This document shows positions 6,225-35,906 of a stretch of 64,000 nucleotides of DNA, one piece after another; the first letter of the stretch is position 1, and every line of letters begins with the position of its first letter. This stretch comes from Anderseniella sp. (GTDB lineage: Bacteria; Pseudomonadota; Alphaproteobacteria; Rhizobiales; Aestuariivirgaceae). The translations under genes were made by a program, and so were the position numbers. The stretch spans positions 1-64,000 of the forward strand of contig JANQOK010000023.1 of the NCBI GenBank assembly GCA_028289645.1, written 5' to 3'. Below the pieces are notes generated by a model, which saw nothing but the letters and a program-made list of their open reading frames with translations, was not told where the DNA came from and did no database searches.

Positions 6225-6620
6225 CTAATCGTCAAGCAGGGCCGTTCCGTAGGAATTGTCGATGACGCAAAGCCAGCCGCCGGACGCCTGGCGGCGAAAC
6301 ACGTAGGTTGCGCGCCTGACGTCAGAGCCATCGGCTGCATCCGGCATCCCGGCATCGACAATGGTTTCCATGATCACGAGCGCGGTATCGCCAGCCTCGA
6401 TCACTCTCATGTCGCCCTGGGAGACCTTTACCCGGTGGTTGAAATGGTCAGCAATTGCCGTGAACGCCTTTCGGATCTGTTGCTTGCCGGTCGCCATGTG
6501 GCCCGGCTGTATTACCAGTGTCGCGTCCTCGGCATAAAAGCCCATCAGAGTGTCGAAATCCTCCGCAGTGATCGCCCGGTCGGCAGCCTCGATGAGGTTT
6601 TTCAGTTCATGGTCTGGCAT
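6225..6620 (-). CDS. SnoaL-like / DUF4440 polyketide cyclase-fold protein
   Basis: This 131-residue protein has the NTF2-like alpha+beta cone fold signature: LIEAADRAITAEDFDTLMGFYAEDATLV at the start, then HFNHRVKVSQGDMRVIEAGDTALV and a C-terminal strand GGWLCVIDNSYG. NTF2-like proteins of this group (SgcJ/EcaC, YybH) bind small molecules, and few have known reactions. It stands alone between the ArsR gene and the Ntn-hydrolase gene on the same strand. Confidence 0.82.
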   Translation of the reverse strand: MPDHELKNLIEAADRAITAEDFDTLMGFYAEDATLVIQPGHMATGKQQIRKAFTAIADHFNHRVKVSQGDMRVIEAGDTALVIMETIVDAGMPDAADGSDVRRATYVFRRQASGGWLCVIDNSYGTALLDD

Positions 6621-6701
6621 TTTCGGTTCCGGAAAGTGGTTGTGCGTATGCGGTACGCAGTCGTCTGTTAAAGCAACGGTATTTGGAGTCTTACGACAGT
6701 T

Positions 6702-8060
6702 TCAGTCGTTCGGATATGTCGCCACCCGCGGCGGAAACAAGTCGCTGGTCCAGCCGCGCACCATGCCATCGGTGTTGTAGAGCATCTCGACCTTGCCGGT
6801 TTTGTCTATGGCTATTATTCCGCCTTTGCCACCGCTGTTTTGGAGTTCCTTGAACACCACCCGATAAGCTGCTTGCACCAGTGTTTCTCCACCATGCCTG
6901 ATGCGCGCGGCGATCTCGTGTGCCACTGCGTGACGAATAAAGTATTCGCCGTGTCCGGTTGCGGAGATGGCGGCGCTTCGATTGTCGGCATAGGTGCCGG
7001 CGCCGATGATGGGTGAGTCGCCAACGCGACCCGGTATCTTCGAGCCGAAACCGCCGGTGGACGTGCCGGCAGCAAGATTGCCGCAGCGATCCCGCGCAAC
7101 AGCGCCTACTGTGCCACCGTTTGTTATGAGATCAGGCTGGTTGCTCAGCAGGCCAGTTGCGCGGCCTCCCCCGGCAGATGACAAACGCGCCTGCAATTGC
7201 CCGTTGCCTGACACCAGATAGGCGATCCGGAATGACGGTGTGCTCACAACCAGAAACCTGTTCAGGAACCTGGCCCGCACTGCCAGGGTTGTCGGTTTGG
7301 AAATGCCCAGGCTCTCGTTTGCTCCGACGGCGACCACAACATCGGCGCCGCGCTCATCCAGTTTCCTGACAACCAGCACATGGTTGAGCTGGCCGCCCAG
7401 AACCCCGCCCCATACACCAGAGAATCCAGCGACCTCCGGCGATATGGTTGCAGCCGGTTTCTCGACCGCTACATCTGCAGGAAGCGTGAGCTGTGAGAAG
7501 TTCCGGCCCGAGTTCAGAAAGTAGGACTGTTCAACCCGGGTTGCGCCGGCCTTGGCCAGATGGGCATCGGCGGCCGGGCCGGCCATCATCACATAGGGCG
7601 TGTCGTCCATGACCTGGCGTGCAGCGCTGATTGGATTTTGCAACTCGCGAACACTGGCGACCGCGCCTGCCCTGAGGTGGCGACCGTCCATGATAGATGC
7701 ATCCATCTCTATTTCTCCGGCTTGATTGGCGACGCTGCCTTTGCCGGCGTTGAAAATGCCGGAGTCTTCCATAGCGGCAACAACTGCCTCGACAACGTTA
7801 AGCGATCTATTGCCCGCTGCCAGCCGTTCACGGCCAATCCGTAGCTGCTGCTCGATAAATGCCTCCTTTGCGGGGCGGGGCGCGAAACCCCAGACCGCGC
7901 CGCCATGAACCGCAAGAGAAAATGTATCATTGTCGGCGCAGTTTCTGCCGAGCCCCTCGGCAGTCACCGGGGTGATACACGCGCAGAAAGCCATGCACAG
8001 AACGATTGAACCTGTGGTGGTCGACGAATTGATCAACTGACGAACTCCTGAGGTCGGCAA
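6702..8060 (-). CDS. Exported isoaspartyl peptidase/L-asparaginase (Ntn-hydrolase)
   Basis: The 452-residue protein belongs to the asparaginase-2/taspase Ntn family, which self-cleaves to expose a catalytic Thr and hydrolyses isoaspartyl peptides or asparagine. A signal peptide is visible (hydrophobic about 18-33, ending ...CITPVTAEG). The mature part starts with LAVHGGAVWG. The beta-subunit nucleophile is the Thr of NGGTVGAVARDRCGNLAAGTSTGG near residue 300. Substrate loops IGAGTYADN and SATGHGEYFIR follow. Usual members are about 300-340 residues. The excess here is an insertion of roughly 100 residues before the catalytic Thr (about 195-300), which is odd. Confidence 0.88.
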   Translation of the reverse strand: MPTSGVRQLINSSTTTGSIVLCMAFCACITPVTAEGLGRNCADNDTFSLAVHGGAVWGFAPRPAKEAFIEQQLRIGRERLAAGNRSLNVVEAVVAAMEDSGIFNAGKGSVANQAGEIEMDASIMDGRHLRAGAVASVRELQNPISAARQVMDDTPYVMMAGPAADAHLAKAGATRVEQSYFLNSGRNFSQLTLPADVAVEKPAATISPEVAGFSGVWGGVLGGQLNHVLVVRKLDERGADVVVAVGANESLGISKPTTLAVRARFLNRFLVVSTPSFRIAYLVSGNGQLQARLSSAGGGRATGLLSNQPDLITNGGTVGAVARDRCGNLAAGTSTGGFGSKIPGRVGDSPIIGAGTYADNRSAAISATGHGEYFIRHAVAHEIAARIRHGGETLVQAAYRVVFKELQNSGGKGGIIAIDKTGKVEMLYNTDGMVRGWTSDLFPPRVATYPND

Positions 8061-8132: not shown

Positions 8133-9008
8133 CTAGAGCAAATGGTGGACTTCCGGCACAAACGTCTGGTCGTCCATTGGCGGGCGGACGTAGCCTGCCT
8201 GTTCCGGTCGATCTTCCAGCACAACAGTCTCCGGCGTCACGTCCTCGTACGGGATCAACGACAACAGGTGACTTATGCAATTGAGACGGGCATGTTTCTT
8301 GACGTCGGATGCCACTACATACCAGGGCGCCTGCTTGATGTCGGTATGGGAAAACATCATGTCCTTGGCCTTTGAATAGTCGACCCAGCGCTTGCGGCTT
8401 TCCAGATCCATCGGGCTGAGTTTCCAGCGTTTGGTCGGGTCGGTCAGGCGCTTCTGGAAGCGGCGTTCCTGCTCTTCGTCGCTGACCGAGAACCAGTATT
8501 TGATCAGCTGGATGCCCGCCCGGACCAACATGCGTTCAAACTCAGGGCAACTGCGCATGAACTCCCGGTACTCGTCGTCGCCACAGAACCCCATGACACG
8601 CTCAACGCCGGCGCGATTGTACCAGGACCGGTCGAAAATAACGATTTCACCTGCAGCCGGCAGATGCGGCACATAGCGCTGGAAGTACCACTGGGTCTTT
8701 TCCCGCTCCGTCGGTGCCGGCAAAGCGACTACATGGCAGATGCGCGGGTTCAGGGCTTCGGTGATACGCTTAATGGTGCCACCCTTGCCGGCAGCGTCGC
8801 GGCCTTCGAATATGATCGCGACCCGGTGGCCGGTGTGCTTCACCCATTCCTGCAATTTGACCAACTCGATCTGTTGCAGGGCCAGGGCCTTCTCATAGGC
8901 GGCGTTGGAGATTTTCTTGGGCCTGCCGTTGCCTAGATTTCCTGATTTGGCTGCGTTGGTAGCTGCTTGCGACTTGCCTTCGGGCTTTTTGACGGCGGTT
9001 TTCGACAT
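8133..9008 (-). CDS. ppk2: Polyphosphate kinase 2 (PPK2)
   Basis: The 291-residue PPK2-family enzyme transfers phosphate between polyphosphate and nucleotides. The Walker A motif is [15 protein letters not shown] (about residue 68). The Walker B/lid segments include [20 protein letters not shown] and LLRAGIQL-type helices, followed by [20 protein letters not shown]. The first 40 residues are a Lys/Ala-rich disordered extension. GGAGGGAAGG precedes the ATG. Whether it prefers GDP or ADP cannot be decided from the visible motifs. It is transcribed alone. Confidence 0.93.
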   Translation of the reverse strand: [291 protein letters not shown]

Positions 9009-9198
9009 GTTCCTTCCCTCCCTTTTGTGCCTTTACGGCATCACAGTTTAGGCCGACAGGTCAAGCAGGGCACAACAATGGATCGAAAATCCCTTGATCG
9101 CGTGCATCAAGGCAGGCGCAAATGTGCACGGGCGGGCGTTCGCCGCGATGGTCAGATTCCGGCGATGGTTCTGAGCGTCTTAAGGCCTCGATGAAAAC

Positions 9199-10068
9199 TT
9201 ATTCAGCCGCCACCGGCACCCGGCGAGTTATGCCAAGTACTGCGCCGTTGAGCGTTAACGGTTGGTCGGTTGCTGCACGTTCAGCTTCCGGCAGAACGTC
9301 CAGCGACGGCCACAGGCCGGTTTCCAGTGCGGCAGCATAACCTGCCGGAAGTCCTTGTGCCCGGATGCGGTCAGCGGCGGTGCGGGCATCGAACTCAAAT
9401 GCATGGTGCGTCATGCTGATGCCATCCTGTTCCGGCTTCAAGACAGACGCCCAGATGCGGCTGGTGCCGTCATTGGCGGGCATGCCAAGCGCACCTGAGT
9501 TGTGCCAGCATCGGTTGCCGATGACCCTGGTGAATGGAATGCCGGCATGCCCTGCAATCACCAGATCAGCCGCCGTCAGGTTCAGTTCGCGATGAAACTC
9601 AGCATCGGGCAGAGATGCAAACATGAAGCGGTTGGTTTGGCTGATCGAGCCATGCACGACCCGGGCCGAGATGCCGCCGATCGAGAACGTCAGTTGGCCG
9701 GGCAGGCCGGACATCCACTGTTTGCTGTGCGCAGACAGTGTCTTCAATGCGTGAGCATACCAGCGCACGGAAGCCATGTCGCAGGCCGAGCCTGCTTCAT
9801 ACCCGCATCCGCAATCGGCGCTGCCTGATGCAATCTGTTCTTCCACATTGCCCTTGATGGCATGCCATCCCCGCGCTGCCATGAACTGAACGCAAGCCTC
9901 GGTGTCGGCGCAGTAGGCAACCGCGTCTCCGGTGTGGATGACGTGGGCATCGCTTACGCCCATTGACCCTTGCAGAGCGGCCAGCGCTTCGAGCGCCTGC
10001 AAGTTGCCGTAGGCACCGCCACAGATCAGCACCGGTTCGGTGAAGGTTCCCAGATCAGCAGTTTTCAT
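9199..10068 (-). CDS. Divergent metallophosphoesterase-fold protein
   Basis: The 289-residue protein follows the layout of the calcineurin-like/YfcE phosphoesterase family. GDAVAYCADTEACV (motif II), GNVEEQIAS (motif III), a C-terminal AGHAGIPFTR (motif GH) and HNSGALGMPAND are all visible. However, the first metal motif, normally D-x-H-G-N, reads GGAYGNLQAL. Both the Asp and the His are replaced, so two metal ligands are absent. It may be a phosphoesterase with altered chemistry or a binding protein. It lies 6 bp downstream of the nitrile hydratase accessory gene and appears to be the last gene of that operon. Confidence 0.75.
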   Translation of the reverse strand: MKTADLGTFTEPVLICGGAYGNLQALEALAALQGSMGVSDAHVIHTGDAVAYCADTEACVQFMAARGWHAIKGNVEEQIASGSADCGCGYEAGSACDMASVRWYAHALKTLSAHSKQWMSGLPGQLTFSIGGISARVVHGSISQTNRFMFASLPDAEFHRELNLTAADLVIAGHAGIPFTRVIGNRCWHNSGALGMPANDGTSRIWASVLKPEQDGISMTHHAFEFDARTAADRIRAQGLPAGYAAALETGLWPSLDVLPEAERAATDQPLTLNGAVLGITRRVPVAAE

Positions 10069-10074
10069 GATTGG

Positions 10075-10434
10075 TCAGTCTCGTGTCTCGGCGCCGAGTT
10101 CAATCGGCATGCCGTGCGGTGTTGCCCTGGCAGCCCTGTCCCAGGCATCCTTGCGGTCCAGGCGTTCAGCTTCGCTCAACGCACCCTTTTGCTGAGTGAT
10201 CTTTTCGAGGGCGGCGAGCCAGCGCAGGTAAAAATTTTCCGCGGCATCGTCGGGACCCGCCGCGGCGATTTCCCGGCCCAGCGCATCAGCCCATTCGGTC
10301 CAGGTAAAAAGCCCCGTCTCGTGCAGTTTGACGGTCATGGCAAAGGCCTGGGCCTGCCACGGTTCGGCAAACACCGGCTCATCATCCTCGGTGATCAATC
10401 CGGGAAGCTGTCTTAGACCTTCAGGCAGGGACAA
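10075..10434 (-). CDS. Nitrile hydratase accessory protein (P14K-like)
   Basis: The 119-residue protein is homologous to the N-terminal half of nitrile hydratase beta subunits (EPVFAEPWQAQAFAMTVKLHETGLFTWTEW). In cobalt-type enzymes such a protein carries cobalt to the alpha subunit by self-subunit swapping. I place the start at TTG (10434), which has GGGAGAG five bases upstream and overlaps the end of the beta gene by 14 bp. An ATG at 10458 without a clear ribosome binding site is the alternative. Confidence 0.85.
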   Translation of the reverse strand: MSLPEGLRQLPGLITEDDEPVFAEPWQAQAFAMTVKLHETGLFTWTEWADALGREIAAAGPDDAAENFYLRWLAALEKITQQKGALSEAERLDRKDAWDRAARATPHGMPIELGAETRD

Positions 10435-11083
10435 GGTAACTCTCCCACAGGTCGGCATGCATGCAGTCTTTGGCCGAGGCATCCTCGCCCCAGAGCTCGC
10501 GGGCGGAGAACCTGACCGTGTACAGGTGCTGCGGGTTTTCACCCTTGCCGTGGGCATTGGTATCCGGGAATACATGGCCGTCGTGGTGAGAGACAATCTC
10601 ACCTGCGCATCCGCGCAGATAGCGCGGCAACCGGGTATGGCCGTCCGGGTTCATGCGACGGGCCCGCACCTTGCTGCCGATCGCGAACTTCGGCTTTGTG
10701 GCGAGGTCACGCACAGCCGGCCCGCCCTTGGCCAGAATGCCGGCAACCTCGTCGGCGCGGAAAGGATCACGGTGCAGGTCGCGCGGTGTCACTTCCTGGC
10801 GGCCCAGGTGGACTTCGCCCGGGACCACAAAACCGGTGTCCAGCATCAGCTTGATCAGGCCTTCGGTCCAGATCTGGTAATAGCTGGATGTCATGTACTT
10901 GGCGGGATGCATGCTTTCGCGGGCATGGCGGCCCTGGTCGATGTTCCACTGGCCGTAGAACCCCATTGCGAGCGTCAGTGCAAAGGCGCGTTTTTCCCAC
11001 TCCGCATGAAACACCGGTTCGTCGATTTCCGGGTCAATGGGGCCGAGGCCGTGCACGCCGCCGAGATCCTGACCACCGTTCAT
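10421..11083 (-). CDS. nthB: Nitrile hydratase beta subunit
   Basis: The 220-residue subunit begins [19 protein letters not shown], a classic nitrile hydratase beta N-terminus. It ends with the SH3-like barrel ([26 protein letters not shown]...G) that contacts the alpha subunit. With the alpha subunit it hydrates nitriles to amides. Its ATG overlaps the alpha stop by four bases (ATGA), which implies translational coupling and 1:1 production. Confidence 0.95.
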
Positions 11084-11724
11084 GATGCCACCTCGTCAGG
11101 GGACAGGGCCAGGCCGGTGCCGATCATGGAATTGCGGGTTACCAGGGTGGCAAGTTTCTCCTCGCTCCAGCCGTCGGTTCCATCGGGCCGCTGGGGGATG
11201 ACCAGATACCTGATTTCGGCCGTGGAATCCCACACCTTGATGCCGACGTTCTCAGGCAGCTGAACGCCAAACTCGGCCAGTACGCCGCGTGGGTCGGATA
11301 CGGCCCGGGACCGGTAGGGCGGCGCCTTGTACCACACCGGCGGCAATCCCAGGACGGGCCACGGATAACACGAGCACAGGGTGCACACGACCATGTTGTG
11401 GGTGTCAGGCGTGTTTTCCAGCGCCACCATGTGCTCGCCCTGACGGCCGATGAAGCCCATGTCGGCAATGGCATTGGTGGCGTCGGTGCGCAGTTTCTCC
11501 ATGAAGCCTGCGTCGGTCCAGGCCCTGGCGACCACCTGGCCGCCATTGCGCGGGCCGACCCGGGTCTCATAGGTTTCGATCAGTTCATCGAGTGCCGCAG
11601 GATCGACATAGCCCTTTTCCACGAGCAGGCTTTCCAACGCCTTGACCCGCAGTGCAGTCTCGGACAGTTCGGAATGCTCACCATGATGGTGGTGGTGATC
11701 ATGGTCATGGGTGTCGTGTGCCAT
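11080..11724 (-). CDS. nthA: Nitrile hydratase alpha subunit, cobalt type
   Basis: The 214-residue catalytic subunit carries the metal claw [11 protein letters not shown] (about residue 108). The Thr after the first Cys is the signature of the cobalt enzyme, where iron enzymes have Ser. The middle two-Cys/Ser set is normally oxidised to sulfinic and sulfenic acids. The first 15 residues are a His/Asp-rich tail ([17 protein letters not shown]) that could scavenge metal. I start at ATG 11724; an upstream GTG would add 18 unconvincing residues. No amidase gene lies nearby to use the amide product. Confidence 0.93.
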
Positions 11725-11812
11725 ATGGTGGGTTACTCTCTTGATTGACCGGATGCCATACTGCAAGCAAGTCGACAACCTAACAACTCACAAATTTACA
11801 AGGAAACCAAAC

Positions 11813-12496
11813 ATGACTGTGAAACTTGCGGGCATCAAGGCATGTGTGTTCGATGCCTACGGCACATTGTTGAATGTTCACGCGCCGGTGGCGCAGTTGT
11901 CGTCGCGCATCGGCAAGGACGCCGACGCAGTTTCCAAATTGTGGCGGCAGAAGCAGCTTGAGTACACCTGGCTGCGGTCACTGATGCAGGCATATGTGCC
12001 GTTCTGGCAGGTCACCGGTGATGCGCTCGACTATACGCTGGAGGCGTTTTCCATCGAAGACCAGGCGCTGCGTGACGACCTGATGGAGCTGTATCTTCAC
12101 CTCGCGGCTTACGATGATGCGGTTGCCTGTCTCAAAGTCCTGAAAGAGCTCGGAGTTGCCACGGCGATCCTGTCCAACGGGTCCCCCGACATGCTGGGTG
12201 CGGCGGTCAAGTCGTCCGGGCTTGATGCCTACCTGGACGAAAACATCTCGGTTGCCGACGTCGGCATTTTCAAGCCAGACCCGCGCGTCTACCAGCAGGC
12301 GGTGGACCGCATGGGTGTGACTGAACGAGCTGAAATCTGCTTTGTGTCGGCCAATACATGGGACGCGCAGGCGGCGAAGAGTTTTGGCTTCCAGGTCGCC
12401 CGGATCAACCGTTTCGGCCTCAAGGACGACCGCATACCCGGCACGCCCGACCTGCTGCTCGACAGCCTGGAAGAGCTGCCCGGCGTGGTCCGGTAG
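11813..12496 (+). CDS. Haloacid dehalogenase type II
   Basis: The 227-residue HAD-superfamily protein resembles L-2-haloacid dehalogenases. The nucleophile motif is VFDAYGTLLN (Asp at about residue 12), with AILSNGSPDML as motif II, VGIFKPDPRVY with the Lys of motif III, and FVSANTWDAQAAKSFG as the last motif with the Ser-Asn-Asp set characteristic of dehalogenases rather than phosphatases. The ATG at 11813 has AAGGA upstream. It is divergent from the nitrile hydratase operon and followed within 9 bp by a GST-like gene. Confidence 0.9.
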   Translation: MTVKLAGIKACVFDAYGTLLNVHAPVAQLSSRIGKDADAVSKLWRQKQLEYTWLRSLMQAYVPFWQVTGDALDYTLEAFSIEDQALRDDLMELYLHLAAYDDAVACLKVLKELGVATAILSNGSPDMLGAAVKSSGLDAYLDENISVADVGIFKPDPRVYQQAVDRMGVTERAEICFVSANTWDAQAAKSFGFQVARINRFGLKDDRIPGTPDLLLDSLEELPGVVR

Positions 12497-30906: not shown

Positions 30907-31353
30907 CTATTCTGCCGCGACATTGCCGGCCAGTTCGTTCAGCGCCTGTTTGCAGCTTGCAAAGCGCTCCTCGGCGGCGCGAAGTTCCGCCCCGAGGGAT
31001 TCCAGGCGCGTGCTCAGCGTTTTCAGCAGAAGTTCGTTATAATCGATGTCTTCTCCACCATCTGCGGCCGTCTGAACAAGGCGCGCGATGTCCTTGACCT
31101 CCATTCCCAATGACCGCAACTGCTTCGACAATCGCAGCGAGCAAATGTCCTTGTAGCTGAACAGACGAAACCGCCCGCTTCGATGCGGGGTAATGATGCC
31201 TGACTGCTCATAGAAACGAATGGTGCGTGGTGTCATATCCAGGTTTTTTGACACCTCTCCGATTGTCATCAATGACTTGCCTGAGCTGCCATTGACCTGT
31301 GAAAGTTCGTTCAACAGGTTTGCAATTCTGGTTGTGGCTGTTGGTGCCGTCAT
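30907..31353 (-). CDS. MerR-family transcriptional regulator
   Basis: The 148-residue protein has the MerR winged helix MTIGEVSKNLDMTPRTIRFYEQSGIITPHRSGRFRLFSYKDI (about 29-75). A long antiparallel coiled-coil dimerisation helix (about 100-145) follows, and a single Cys lies near the end (FASCKQAL). It is not a metal-type MerR with paired cysteines. It lies 85 bp downstream of tfuA on the same strand, so it could belong to the YcaO/TfuA operon, but this is not certain. Confidence 0.88.
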   Translation of the reverse strand: MTAPTATTRIANLLNELSQVNGSSGKSLMTIGEVSKNLDMTPRTIRFYEQSGIITPHRSGRFRLFSYKDICSLRLSKQLRSLGMEVKDIARLVQTAADGGEDIDYNELLLKTLSTRLESLGAELRAAEERFASCKQALNELAGNVAAE

Positions 31354-31438: not shown

Positions 31439-32173
31439 TCAGTTTTTTGCGTCCAAATCCTCGCACATCTCTATCCATTGTGATGTTTGGTTGAAGGTCC
31501 ATGGTTTTCCAGGCGCCACGGGCTCGTCCATGTCAGATTGCAGCCAGTCAACCAGTTCCAGTGCGTCTGCCTGTTTGGCGTCCACATATTTGGCTTTGGC
31601 AAGTTTGATCATCCGCTCGACGCGGTTTGCGTTCATGACCTGCATGTTTGCAAACACAGAGCGCAGGCTGAGCTCGGCATAGAACATCCGGTCGGCAACA
31701 GCTTTGGCATTTTTCCACTCTGTCTCGGAGATCAGGTTGTCCTTCATCATCGCATTGAGCGTTGCAACCACGTTTACGCGCGGTTCTGACAACGCCAGAT
31801 AGTTGAGTTCCGCCGGACCGTGGACCAGTGCAACATCGGAGTCATCGAACAGCGTGCCGGAGATGTAGTCATGGGCAATGGAGCCGATCGGGATCATGCC
31901 GAACGGCTGGCACTCGGCCGCGCGCAATGCGCCGAGGCTCGCAGCACCGGCAACCTTGGCGCCGCTTGAAAGGGCGAAGATAATCTCCTTGTGCCAGACA
32001 GACCTGGTCTGTTCGAAGTATCCATCGACAATACCAATTCTGGTCGCGCCATCGCGAACTGCCTGGGCGACATCTCCCCATGCCGCTGGACCGCGGACCA
32101 CGATGTCCGGACAGCGCTCCTTGATATTGGCAAGCTGACTGGCAAGGGTTGGGCCGGTAAACAGAACTTTCAT
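31439..32173 (-). CDS. TfuA-like protein (YcaO partner)
   Basis: The 244-residue TfuA-domain protein carries signature stretches VWHKEIIFALSSGAKVAGAASLGALRAAEC and FGMIPIGSIAHDYISG. TfuA proteins cooperate with YcaO enzymes to build backbone thioamides, probably by delivering sulfur; known cases are thioamitide RiPPs and methanogen McrA. The gene overlaps the YcaO gene end by four bases (ATGA). With only YcaO and TfuA and no separate dehydrogenase, a thioamide product is more likely than a thiazole. Confidence 0.92.
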   Translation of the reverse strand: MKVLFTGPTLASQLANIKERCPDIVVRGPAAWGDVAQAVRDGATRIGIVDGYFEQTRSVWHKEIIFALSSGAKVAGAASLGALRAAECQPFGMIPIGSIAHDYISGTLFDDSDVALVHGPAELNYLALSEPRVNVVATLNAMMKDNLISETEWKNAKAVADRMFYAELSLRSVFANMQVMNANRVERMIKLAKAKYVDAKQADALELVDWLQSDMDEPVAPGKPWTFNQTSQWIEMCEDLDAKN

Positions 32174-33414
32174 GCCGCCGCCGCCTTCAGGTTGCGTAAC
32201 CCGCGAGGCGTGACCTGGACACGTTCACCCTGAAGCGGCACCTGCAATTCAGTGGCAATGACACGTACGGCGCTGATGCCGAACCGCTCTGCCGGCAGGT
32301 CGATGGCAAACAGCTGGTCTATGCCGACCGCAGCCAGTTTCCGTGTCACATCGGCTACACCAGCCTCCACGTCGTGCTTGCCACCGCCGGTCCGGCTGGA
32401 TGCCGTGCAGGAGAATTTGTTGAGAGACAGTCGCTTGGCGGGGCCGGAAGCCGGCAGTCTTATCGCGTCGGCCGGCTCATAGTGCTTTGAACAGAAGTCG
32501 TCGCGCGCACCGGCCACGAGCGCCAGCCGGGCCTGGGCAGCTTCGGTTATGGCTTTCACCAGCGCATGGCCATATGAAGGATGACATCCGCAGCCACCAC
32601 AGGTGGCGGATGATGTTGCTTTGCCCTGGCCGTGCGTGGCGCCGAGAATGGCCATGACGCAGGGTATGCCGGTGTCGGTGCGCATCTCATAGACTTGCAA
32701 CGATGTATTTGATGAAGCGATGGCTTCCAGTATCACCGGCAGGCGCGGGTCTTCGTCTCCTGTTACTGCCAGCCGGGACCGCCTGATTTCTTCATCACCG
32801 GCAAACTGCCAGGACGCCAGGGCGTCACGTTCAACGAGCTCGCAGATGCCATGAAATATGGCCTCGTTGCGGCTGTTGCCCGACGCCAGCCCGTCGGACG
32901 TGACATAGAAGGCGTTGTTGAAATTCGGTGGGTTGACCCTGTGATCGAGGCCGACCAGGCTCCAGGGGACCAGAAACCGGTCTCCCGATACCAGGTTGGT
33001 CGCTTCAATCCATGACATGCTGTCATTTTCGTTCAGGCGATGAGGATGGCAGCGGGCAATGCGATCAAGGTCCACCGCTTCATGACCGCGGTCGCGCGCC
33101 TGGGAAACCGACAGTTTGACCGGGTCCTGCGGCGGGAATTCCGCGATTGCTGTCTCCGCCGCCTCCATTGCAGCCGACACCAGCGCTGAGTCGATATCGG
33201 CGCCCTTGCCCAAACTCACCGACAAACTGAGGGAATTCGGTCTGGTTGCAAACGCTATCGGCAGGCCCAGATTGTCCAGTCCGGTCAACTCGCCGAGCCT
33301 GGTGATGCCCAATTCGGAAAAATGCGGACGAATCCTGGATAACGTACGGCGTGCTCCGCAAATCCGGTCGTTCGCCGGATAGGATATCCTGGTCTCCGGT
33401 CTCGGCATCATCAT
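32170..33414 (-). CDS. YcaO-family cyclodehydratase / thioamide synthetase
   Basis: The 414-residue YcaO enzyme activates a peptide amide with ATP so a sulfur or side chain can attack. Visible family features are RISYPANDR, GITRLGELTGLDNLGLP, SLSVSLGKGADIDSALVSAAMEAAE with the ATP/Mg residues, a SGNSRNEAIFHGICELVERDA segment, and the Cys-containing CGGCGCHPSYGHALVKAITEAAQAR. I start at ATG 33414, which has AGGAG seven bases upstream; a TTG at 33525 would add 37 residues. TfuA follows with overlap, and a 59-residue peptide gene precedes, 188 bp away. Confidence 0.93.
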   Translation of the reverse strand: MMMPRPETRISYPANDRICGARRTLSRIRPHFSELGITRLGELTGLDNLGLPIAFATRPNSLSLSVSLGKGADIDSALVSAAMEAAETAIAEFPPQDPVKLSVSQARDRGHEAVDLDRIARCHPHRLNENDSMSWIEATNLVSGDRFLVPWSLVGLDHRVNPPNFNNAFYVTSDGLASGNSRNEAIFHGICELVERDALASWQFAGDEEIRRSRLAVTGDEDPRLPVILEAIASSNTSLQVYEMRTDTGIPCVMAILGATHGQGKATSSATCGGCGCHPSYGHALVKAITEAAQARLALVAGARDDFCSKHYEPADAIRLPASGPAKRLSLNKFSCTASSRTGGGKHDVEAGVADVTRKLAAVGIDQLFAIDLPAERFGISAVRVIATELQVPLQGERVQVTPRGLRNLKAAAA

Positions 33415-33508
33415 AGATTTGCTCCTGCCCGGTTTGGCAAGGCTGCTGGGTGAACTGTCAATAACTCGATCAATCTGAATGGTCCTGCTGACCTGATCAG
33501 GATGATTT

Positions 33509-33589
33509 TCAATCACTGCAATCAAAAATCATCGGCCTGATGTCTGTCAAAATGCCAGAGCAACTCTGCGGGTTCTGCCGAACCCGCAT
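33509..33589 (-). CDS. 26-residue ORF between peptide gene and YcaO
   Basis: ATG at 33589 opens a 26-codon frame with two cysteines (...NPQSCSGILTD...IFDCSD), preceded by CAGGAACA. The hairpin at 33567-33588 overlaps its first codons. It could be a second tiny substrate or only leader sequence. Weak evidence. Confidence 0.2.
   Translation of the reverse strand: MRVRQNPQSCSGILTDIRPMIFDCSD
33567..33588 (-). promoter_or_regulatory. Perfect hairpin downstream of the peptide gene
   Basis: TGCGGGTTC, loop of 4, GAACCCGCA make a 9 bp stem with no mismatch, 15 bp past the peptide stop. No T-run follows on the minus strand, so it is not a standard terminator. In RiPP operons such hairpins often limit read-through or stabilise the precursor mRNA. 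Confidence 0.6.
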
Positions 33590-33602
33590 TGTTCCTGTTA
33601 CT

Positions 33603-33782
33603 TCAGCACGACACCCGACCGGGCTCTGAACGCATGGTGAATACGATTGTCGACATCACGCCATTGTCAGTGAGGTCCGTGCCTGCAGCGCTGCCGGCCC
33701 GTGCCGAGATGGGAAACACCTGACCGTCTGCGGCGCGAACGGTGTTTGGGCACGATGTATCTGATGAGTAGGATGCGTTCAT
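33603..33782 (-). CDS. 59-residue candidate RiPP precursor peptide
   Basis: ATG 33782 to TGA 33603 encodes 59 residues: an N-terminus rich in Ser (MNASYSSDTSCPN), a middle AADGQVFPISARAGSAAG, and a C-terminus VFTMRSEPGRVSC. It has two Cys (residues 11 and 59, the last residue) and many Ser/Thr. GGAGA lies five bases before the ATG, one of the better ribosome binding sites in the region. It sits between the SARP-type regulator and YcaO/TfuA, all on the same strand. Placement, size and C-terminal Cys fit a substrate of YcaO/TfuA, but no homologue is recognised by eye and the core region is not known. Confidence 0.7.
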   Translation of the reverse strand: MNASYSSDTSCPNTVRAADGQVFPISARAGSAAGTDLTDNGVMSTIVFTMRSEPGRVSC

Positions 33783-33884
33783 TTGAGTCTCCGCCTGTTA
33801 AAGAATTTAGTTAACAGGCGAAGCGTAGGCGGTGATGTGTGATTCAAGTGTGATTTCAGGTCGCGGCGGCAATCACCTTGGGTG

Positions 33885-35906
33885 TTATGACAATCCGGCC
33901 ATGCGCAATCCCTCGACCAAATGCCTTGTATCATTTGCGTTTTTGTCCGGAACCAGCTCACTCAGCCGGTTGAGTTCGAAGCTGGGATAGTTTTCCCGAA
34001 CGGTCGCACTGTACTTTCTCGCGGTGCTCACATCCCCTGACATGGCATGAGATGCAGCAAGCAGGCGCGCGACACCAGGATTGCTTCGGTGCGGCTGCAA
34101 AATTGCAATTGCTGCCTTGTAGGCAGCCAGTTGATAGAGGATGCTGGCATGTATCCAGTCGTAATAGGCTGGCGGATCCGGATTGGACGCCTTGGCCTGC
34201 AGGCAGATTGCCAGTGCCTCGGCTCCCTGACCGGCATGAGACAGTGCGTCGGCATAGTCGGCCAGCATGTCCGCATCGTTTGGTATCAGATCCGCGGCGG
34301 CAGCAAAGTTTTCCAGGCTTTCATCATGGCGCCGCATGTACAGGTTGGTAAAGCCGAGTTCGCGCAGGCCGCGCCCGTCCATGGGATCAATCCTGATAGA
34401 CTTGCCGGCGTATTCCAGCGCTTCGACGAGCAAGTCGCTGGAGGTCATGCCGCGTACCAGCCTTTCCATGCTCAAGGTTCGCGACAGGCCGGAATAGGCG
34501 GGTGCAAAATTGTCTGCCTCATTTATCGAGCGGCGAAAACTGGCGCGCGCTTTCCTGATTTCAGGCAGATCAGAGTGCCACAGAAAGCGTCGACCATTGA
34601 GAAAATGCTGGTAGGCATTGCTGTTGTCGGTTGTCGTGGGAAACGCAACTTCGCGGCGTTCGATCGTCGATACGAGCTGGCGGACAATCTCGAAGCTCAG
34701 TCGTGAAAACAATCCCGGCAGGTCGTCCTCGCGCAACCGTTTGTCCAAGGCCATGAGACTCTCGGTTGTGCGCGCATCAAGCAAAAGAAAGGTCGCGGTT
34801 GATCCGTCATCGTTAGATTTGATGACGGTTGAGAGTATGTAATCGACGCCAAACCGCTTGCCGATGGCATCAAAGTCGCCACTGGCGTCCTGGCTGGCCA
34901 TGCGACCGCTGTGGGCGGCCAGCACGGCGATGCTGCGATAGCGGGTCAGCCCGACGGTAATGTCGTCTAGCAGGGCCTCAATCAACTGCACCGACGGACT
35001 TGCGCCGTGAGCCAGGCGAGGCGGCAGCAGGATCATTCTGGGCGCGCCGATCCTCTGGGTCTGCTCGGTGAGGTTTATCTTTTTCGCTGTGTCTGCCTGG
35101 TCCACATTGCCGGCGACGGTAAATGGCGCGAGCGCCGCTCTTGCGGGCTGTTGCTTGATGCCCATGGTGGTCGCAAGCTGCTCGGTCGACAGGCTCGGTT
35201 TGATGCCGTAATCGGTCAACAAGACCTGGCGGCAGCGATTGTAGACTTGCAGCGCCTTTGCCTGATTGCCCTGATCACACCAGAGTTTGATCAGAGTCCT
35301 GTAGGCCGCCTCATTGCTGGAATCCAGCTCCAGCAGATCATTGGCGACCTGTTCAATCTTTGCTGGCACCGTTTCTTGTTCCATCAGCGCCGAAAGGGCT
35401 GCGCTGCGGGCCGTCATCAGCTTGCCTGACAGCTCGAAGTGCCAATCCTCAAACTCGCGAGTGTCTATATCCACGGCTTGAAGCAGGGGCGAGGCAACCA
35501 TCTCAACAAAGGTCGTGAGACCTGAATAGTTCCCGGTTCTGGTGTCGTCGACAACATCATGGGCAAGCGCTGTTTCGAGATCAACCTGGACGCAGGCACT
35601 GTCGTAGGACACCAGCTTGCCGGACTTGACCAGAAGGCTTGCACCGTATTGCTTTTCAAGTTTTCTGACCTTTACCAGGAACTGCCGGAAACTTGCATTG
35701 GCCCTGGCCTTTTCAGCGGTGCCCCAAAGCATGGAGACCAGGCTTTGCTGGCTCACGGTGCGATCCGGTTGGCTGGCCAGAACCGCAAGAACAACGGCCA
35801 GTTTCTCAGGCGCCGGTATGGTTTGCCCTGATACCGTCACGTGAGGATAGCCGAACGCGTTCACCTTGTAGATCGGTTCACAGTCTTTCAGCTCGATCGG
35901 CCGCAA
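33885..35906 (-). CDS. SARP/BTAD-type transcriptional regulator with TPRs
   Basis: The 673-residue regulator begins with an OmpR-like winged helix (VNAFGYPHVTVSGQTI...SMLWG) and a bacterial transcriptional activator domain (BTAD, about 100-245, e.g. AYRTLIKLWCDQGNQAKALQVYNRCRQVL). A TolB/FlgO-like middle domain follows (about 275-400), then TPR repeats (about 420-600). The start is TTG at 35906 with AAGGAG eight bases upstream. It precedes the peptide gene by 102 bp on the same strand and probably controls the YcaO/TfuA locus. SARP regulators often drive secondary metabolite genes. Confidence 0.87.
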   Translation of the reverse strand: MRPIELKDCEPIYKVNAFGYPHVTVSGQTIPAPEKLAVVLAVLASQPDRTVSQQSLVSMLWGTAEKARANASFRQFLVKVRKLEKQYGASLLVKSGKLVSYDSACVQVDLETALAHDVVDDTRTGNYSGLTTFVEMVASPLLQAVDIDTREFEDWHFELSGKLMTARSAALSALMEQETVPAKIEQVANDLLELDSSNEAAYRTLIKLWCDQGNQAKALQVYNRCRQVLLTDYGIKPSLSTEQLATTMGIKQQPARAALAPFTVAGNVDQADTAKKINLTEQTQRIGAPRMILLPPRLAHGASPSVQLIEALLDDITVGLTRYRSIAVLAAHSGRMASQDASGDFDAIGKRFGVDYILSTVIKSNDDGSTATFLLLDARTTESLMALDKRLREDDLPGLFSRLSFEIVRQLVSTIERREVAFPTTTDNSNAYQHFLNGRRFLWHSDLPEIRKARASFRRSINEADNFAPAYSGLSRTLSMERLVRGMTSSDLLVEALEYAGKSIRIDPMDGRGLRELGFTNLYMRRHDESLENFAAAADLIPNDADMLADYADALSHAGQGAEALAICLQAKASNPDPPAYYDWIHASILYQLAAYKAAIAILQPHRSNPGVARLLAASHAMSGDVSTARKYSATVRENYPSFELNRLSELVPDKNANDTRHLVEGLRMAGLS

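Follow-up and report, generated by a model that had tools for sequence, protein, structure and literature searches.

A candidate ribosomal peptide locus combining a short precursor gene, a YcaO-TfuA pair and a SARP-like regulator in Anderseniella sp.

What does a YcaO-TfuA enzyme pair modify when the gene in front of it encodes a peptide of only 59 residues? This question is raised by a locus in a 64,000-nucleotide stretch of Anderseniella sp. DNA (i.e., the window; GenBank assembly GCA_028289645.1, contig JANQOK010000023.1, positions 1 to 64,000), in which a SARP-like regulator gene (BTAD-TPR), a 59-codon open reading frame (ORF), ycaO, and tfuA follow one another on the minus strand (Table 1). 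A first-pass annotation proposed that these genes form a new locus for a ribosomally synthesized and post-translationally modified peptide (RiPP). The gene order, the TTG start of the SARP gene, the ORF with its ribosome binding site, and the 4-bp overlap of ycaO and tfuA (positions 32170 to 32173) were all as it had described (ORF calls and Pfam), and the enzymes and the regulator were recognized by Pfam (E-values of 1.3e-36 for TfuA, 1.2e-62 for YcaO, and 4e-10 for BTAD; TPR was also confirmed). We consider it likely that this is a small RiPP locus with a 59-aa precursor, thioamidation by YcaO-TfuA, and a SARP-activated operon; the cluster probably makes a sulfur-modified peptide from the short precursor. 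The source genome, that of a marine-type alphaproteobacterium (4.8 Mb in 23 contigs), contains four YcaO genes in total, and its closest named relatives are Anderseniella metagenome-assembled genomes (Parvibaculaceae, Hyphomicrobiales). For this genus, a cultured strain, Alg231_50, is reported in PMC9860996.

Orthologues of the 59-codon ORF sit at the same place in three genomes of the same genus (i.e., G001, G003, and G005, the last being cut by a contig end). A search with the peptide against 60 genomes (its own and those of relatives; E 0.01) returned five matches including the window itself; the others were G001 (69%), G003 (63%), G005 (20 residues visible at the contig end), and, in another genus, G015 (36%). 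The substitution pattern is of the coding type: the ratio of nonsynonymous to synonymous substitution rates (dN/dS, i.e., computed dN over computed dS) of the whole ORF was 0.19, 0.27, and 0.26 for the three pairings of the full-length genes of the window, G001, and G003. The ORF is a genuine gene under purifying selection. Two of the conditions named for refuting the first-pass proposal (loss of the frame at equivalent loci and substitutions of a non-coding type) thus came out in its favor. The peptide itself had zero matches in Pfam or NCBIfam; the earlier remark that no homologue is recognized therefore holds at the level of families. That annotation had also anticipated a conserved leader and a variable core. 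The reverse was found, since residues 36 to 59 are more constrained (dN/dS of 0.03, 0.10, and 0.20 for the same pairs) than residues 1 to 35 (0.38, 0.39, and 0.29). The leaders carry a G-x-x-(F/Y)-P-(I/V)-S block in five of six precursors, and G010 has RRLFPV instead. A profile search with the peptide over 397 genomes of the order (E 0.01) matched the window, G001, and G281; the match in G281 (E 0.003) was set aside as false, as it sits inside an 846-aa open frame, which we take to be that of a helicase. The G015 peptide had zero matches among plasmid records.

The relatives point to the likely core of the peptide. All seven loci of the immediate YcaO clade (four genera) have a neighboring peptide with the triplet T-(M/V)-R. 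The 12 cores counted over these loci all conform to it (11 with Met), and, where the precursor start is known, the first core Thr is residue 49 (five precursors) or residue 50 (one). A single core is present in the window, in G001, G003, and G005, and in L024 (a metagenome-assembled genome labeled Rhizobiaceae group; core FTMRSVPT). The G015 precursor, by comparison, is 104 aa long and contains three tandem 19-aa units around DGVMFTMRSEPTE (a 57-bp DNA repeat), and that of G010, from another genus of the family, has 92 to 93 residues, a TTG start, and four 12-aa units around VLTTMR(S/A)Q. The latter precursor was missed by the peptide searches and came to light only when the sequence ahead of the G010 YcaO gene was read. 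Within DGVMFTMRSEPTE (G015) and VLTTMR (G010), the copies differ at the DNA level by synonymous changes only. Tandem cores with such differences are, as judged from these genes, a signature of RiPP precursors, and the copies likely mark the part that becomes the product.

The two enzymes point to the chemistry. The best NCBIfam models for both are those of McrA glycine thioamidation (TIGR03266 and NF033432): YcaO scores 170.9 bits (equivalog cut-off of 365, not reached), and TfuA scores 155 bits (equivalog cut-off of 235.2, not reached). The nearest solved structures are MJ1094 for YcaO (6pe3; E 2.5e-34) and 6xp8 for TfuA (E 2.4e-36). The source genome also carries two ThiS-family genes; together with the enzyme matches, they support a prediction of thioamidation over azoline formation. 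In excerpts of PMC13063428, supplemented by general background, TfuA is described as delivering sulfur from thiocarboxylated ThiS. The three other YcaO genes of the source genome are paralogues placed in other clades. Comparison with relatives favors the ATG at 33414 as the start of YcaO (414 aa) over that of the longest TTG frame.

The regulator is associated with this type of YcaO. A tree built from 38 YcaO proteins contains a 16-row clade (support, 100/99), which is made up of the group of the window (7 rows; 100/99), a group of six Rhizobium-like rows (100/99), and Devosia, G1025, and G955 (97/90), with Yoonia as the sister (90/89). Every YcaO gene of this clade that was read is adjoined by a short ORF (47 or 42 to 43 aa in the Rhizobium-like group, 58 aa in Devosia, and 71 aa in G955). 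On the basis of a profile of 11 clade SARPs, a SARP is present at 14 of the 16 loci, with G005 and G015 running off contig ends; at the contig end of G015, a SARP-like frame can still be read over its final codons. Since 11 sequences trained the profile, only the remaining hits count as independent: G338, G1048, G924, and G992, together with three from outside the tree (G057 and the plasmid loci L057 and L058). The profile found no SARP at any of the 15 more distant class loci or at L060 to L063 (only ~1.4 kb of flank). It is unspecific, as it also matches adenylate-cyclase-TPR proteins near the source-genome YcaO genes L014 and L015. BTAD was recognized by Pfam in seven of eight related regulators scanned (L080 lacked it); in the window, BTAD is above the cut-off, and the N-terminal DNA-binding domain is a Trans_reg_C match below the threshold (E 0.0063). 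The G010 SARP gene is located downstream of tfuA.

Longer ORFs were also observed in this clade and in its sister. Locus L079 (G1025:C11:526000-542000) contains a SARP gene, 83- and 142-aa precursor-like ORFs with a common leader, ycaO, and tfuA; in the 142-aa ORF, a 13-aa unit centered on (G/A/S)R(S/T)(D/G/N)PS(D/E)R occurs six times. In L025 (Yoonia sediminilitoris), a 196-aa ORF with C-terminal GDAADF repeats precedes ycaO (positions 6337 to 6927), and a BTAD-TPR regulator is encoded on the opposite strand.

A direct repeat of the form TCAC-N7-TCAC lies between the SARP and precursor genes at all five loci of the T-(M/V)-R type with an upstream SARP (i.e., the window, G001, G003, G015, and L024); when each spacer was shuffled 20,000 times, 0.1 to 0.4% of the shuffles contained it. 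The two heptamers at 11 bp are identical at 7/7 positions in the window, G003, and L024 and at 6/7 in G001, and 6/7 pairs at this distance are also present in G249 and G1048. By eye, a TA-N3-T hexamer follows the repeat after 9 bp in the window (TACGCT), G003 (TACGGT), and G001 (TACGAT); L024 has TATAGT after 7 bp, and the nearest hexamer of G015 (TAATGA) fits incompletely. SARP operators are described in excerpts of PMC5930380 and PMC10972967 as heptamers with 4-nt spacers, usually overlapping the -35 region. The 11-bp-period repeat is hence a candidate SARP operator of the classical form, to which the regulator would bind. The spacers of G1025 (30 bp) and G955 (23 bp) are below the length at which the repeat can be tested.

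Several observations weigh against the RiPP interpretation or its regulatory part. No protease, exporter, or RiPP recognition element was recognized among the ten neighboring proteins scanned with Pfam. The leaders of the window and G001 precursors also contain the triplet TVR, at residue 14; these occurrences were left out of the core count, and the triplet alone is therefore not diagnostic. The repeat motif was picked after the window had been seen, and three of the five loci bearing it are close relatives, which leaves G015 and L024 as the independent confirmations; the best heptamer match of G015 at 11 bp is only 5/7. The pattern TCACACNNNNNTCACAC occurs once in the source genome, and so does a reversed control pattern. 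No heptamer pair of at least 6/7 at 11 bp was present in G435, G338, or L026, and G010, with its SARP gene past tfuA, has no such repeat ahead of the precursor.

The locus is patchily distributed. YcaO profiles matched 6 of the 69 genomes of the family (E 1e-85; four of the Anderseniella type, G015, and G010) and 9 of 297 genomes of the Rhizobium-like family (1e-85). Among 397 genomes sampled from the order, 6 matched at 1e-80 (the window, G001, and four from a single Rhizobium-like genus); among 385 sampled from the class, 15 matched at 1e-75, namely the window and 14 others that are more distant. A scan of named genomes gave six loci. At E 1e-40, YcaO had no match in G002 and only weak matches in G004, G006, G008, and G014, with two of these five assemblies being 85 and 82% complete, which makes absence uncertain. 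Among plasmid records, 125 matched YcaO at E 1e-40, and 119 of them were from Rhizobium; in the two Rhizobium records inspected, BTAD, a 47-aa ORF, YcaO, and TfuA follow in that order. The gene order suggests that genus g32 is Rhizobium. A MerR gene beyond tfuA was found in G001 and, by reading, in G003 and G005; at E 1e-20, neither G002 nor G004 gave a match, and these are the two genomes of the same genus in which the cluster was not found either. The gene is possibly a cassette member in this genus.

We propose the following model. The precursor would consist of an N-terminal leader of ~45 residues with the G-x-x-(F/Y)-P-(I/V)-S block, followed by a core around F-T-M-R-S-E-P. ATP-dependent YcaO, with TfuA, would exchange a backbone amide oxygen of the core for sulfur. 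For its position, the Met-Arg bond is our best guess, modeled on the Pro-Arg thioamide of the thiovarsolins. A housekeeping protease would then free a short thioamide peptide. The SARP would activate the precursor-ycaO-tfuA operon from the 11-bp-period repeat next to the -10 region, and the hairpin past the precursor gene (folded in the window, G003, and G015 only) may cause the precursor to be made in excess over the enzymes.

An extension of this model, for which we see an outside chance, is a peptide-signaling circuit: the thioamidated T-M-R peptide would be sensed by the TPR domain of the SARP, which would activate its own precursor operon by way of the direct repeat, much as in an RRNPP-like pheromone loop. 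Such a circuit would account for the stronger conservation of the core relative to the leader, for the multiplied cores, and for the linkage of a TPR regulator to the precursor. If true, alphaproteobacteria, among them Rhizobium, would have a thioamide pheromone resistant to proteases.

One challenge to a RiPP product comes from the enzymes themselves. They score best against McrA-thioamidation models, and in excerpts of PMC13063428 the E. coli YcaO thioamidates Met82 of uL16. It is conceivable that YcaO-TfuA modifies an unlinked housekeeping protein (cf. McrA and uL16) and that the peptide is a conserved regulatory microprotein; conservation of the peptide core is, indeed, unusual for a RiPP. 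However, the neighboring peptides vary strongly by lineage while retaining the core, and two genera carry it in tandem copies, for which a microprotein would have no use. The locus is also patchy, since searches of G002 and G004, from the same genus, did not find it, which is unlike a housekeeping function, and the same excerpts state that TfuA is not encoded near the suspected uL16-modifying YcaO enzymes. We regard this alternative as improbable.

Doubt also extends to the type of modification within a RiPP reading. YcaO enzymes perform all three reactions, the core bears Ser/Thr, and the window precursor contains Cys, so that an azoline or amidine might be installed instead of a thioamide. 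This seems unlikely to us, given the TfuA partner and the McrA-type YcaO, which indicate thioamidation; neither a cyclodehydratase partner nor a dehydrogenase was recognized in the Pfam-scanned neighborhood, and the invariant T-(M/V)-R lacks Cys, though its Thr is cyclizable in principle. The first-pass annotation had further compared the peptide with thioamitide precursors, pointing to its Ser/Thr-rich sequence, its terminal Cys, and a Cys at residue 11. Both Cys residues are present in the window, but they are not conserved among relatives: the terminal one is missing from the peptides of G001, G005, G015, L024, and G010. Moreover, as that annotation itself had noted, no Cys decarboxylase gene was recognized (among the ten neighboring proteins). 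A thioamitide-like product with a C-terminal aminovinyl-cysteine ring was thus rejected as having hardly any chance. The 59-aa precursor and the YcaO-TfuA pair of the proposed RiPP locus were supported; its comparison with thioamitides was not. The relatives with tandem cores, the direct repeat ahead of the precursor gene, and the YcaO clade linked to SARPs go beyond what that annotation described.

Among known systems, the thioamidated-peptide family proposed here appears nearest in logic to the thiovarsolins (VarA/VarY/VarT of Streptomyces varsoviensis). According to excerpts of PMC6511847, the repeated APR core receives its thioamide from YcaO-TfuA at the Pro-Arg junction, production was abolished when varA, varY, or varT was deleted, and the cluster has no specific protease. 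In both families, YcaO-TfuA genes adjoin a precursor with a short Arg-containing core, which is single or tandemly repeated in relatives, and no dedicated protease was recognized (for the thiovarsolins, in those excerpts; here, among the scanned neighbors). Unlike the thiovarsolins, the present family has a T-M-R-S/A core (not A-P-R/GPR) and a SARP regulator and occurs in alphaproteobacteria; no counterpart of the accessory genes varO, varL, varS, and varP, and no ATP-grasp, amidinotransferase, or heme-oxygenase-like gene, was recognized among the ten scanned neighbors. The McrA systems of methanogens share the best NCBIfam models and solved structures, but here both enzymes fall under the equivalog cut-offs, McrA is not part of the setting, and a small peptide is encoded in the operon. 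The thioviridamide family likewise shares YcaO-TfuA and, with the window peptide, a C-terminal Cys. The regulator resembles Streptomyces SARPs (PimR, AfsR, etc.; excerpts of PMC5930380 and PMC10972967) in its BTAD domain and in a direct repeat with an 11-bp period close to the -35/-10 region; it differs in being alphaproteobacterial, ~670 aa long, with C-terminal TPR and no NB-ARC by Pfam.

In excerpts of a 2021 survey, known YcaO-TfuA products are from Actinobacteria and most detected pairs are from Proteobacteria, with >500 clusters in Rhizobium (Malit et al. 2021; PMC8120280). The Rhizobium clusters form the sister clade in the YcaO tree (98/95; YcaO identity, ~41%) and share the order of BTAD regulator, short ORF, YcaO, and TfuA in both records inspected. 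They differ in a 47-aa precursor that ends in LTHALKFR or similar, without a T-M-R core, and in an extra 88-aa gene downstream. At the Rhizobium-like loci L036 to L039, an 88- to 94-aa protein is encoded directly after tfuA; the one that was scanned had no Pfam match. The main text of PMC8120280, without supplements, has zero occurrences of SARP, BTAD, and "repeat," and we found no paper that joins SARP, YcaO, and Alphaproteobacteria (supplements and subscription papers were outside the scope, and an earlier listing of the precursor is possible). Here, substrate and core can be read from evolution (i.e., the invariant T-M/V-R and the tandem copies), which makes an orphan locus type testable by one mass, one bond, and one operator. 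The SARP link would be a handle for switching such clusters on, and the wider YcaO clade reaches Rhizobium plasmids, whose strains are easily manipulated.

Table 1. Features of the locus (positions in the window)
Feature	Positions	Strand	Basis
SARP-like regulator, BTAD + TPR, 673 aa, TTG start	33885..35906	-	Pfam; homologues adjoin related loci
Direct repeat TCACAC-N5-TCACAC, 11-bp period, candidate SARP operator	33837..33853	-	Same form in G001, G003, G015, L024
TACGCT, -10-like hexamer, 9 bp past second repeat	33822..33827	-	By eye
Hairpin in presumed 5' leader, 13-bp stem, overlapping part of the ribosome binding site	33789..33823	-	z -5.06, folded for the window only
Precursor peptide gene, 59 aa, ATG start, GGAG in front	33603..33782	-	Conservation, selection
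Conserved core segment FTMRSEP, residues 48-54	33621..33641	-	Tandem repeats in G015 and G010
Intercistronic hairpin, precursor/ycaO gap	33559..33596	-	z -4.25 (also G003 -4.30, G015 -3.44)
YcaO, McrA-thioamidase-like	32170..33414	-	Pfam, NCBIfam, structure matches
TfuA, short, 244 aa	31439..32173	-	Pfam, NCBIfam, structure matches
MerR-family regulator, possibly a cassette member in this genus only	30907..31353	-	Pfam, presence in relatives

Other YcaO-TfuA loci were observed in passing. At positions 8461 to 15685 of L016 (G000:C20:108000-127000), also in the source genome, a YcaO-TfuA pair adjoins a LanM-type lanthionine synthetase (DUF4135 + LANC_like), a possible lanthipeptide-thioamide hybrid; a weak heme-oxygenase-like protein is just under the cut-off there (Pfam E 4e-6). 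A different YcaO-TfuA type, with an upstream protein of 74 to 101 aa, is present in L015 (G000:C6:774000-793000; positions 8951 to 12167), L047, L049, and L056. The upstream protein, scanned in L015 with no Pfam match, carries YEHGI.IKWG...YYVP in three loci.

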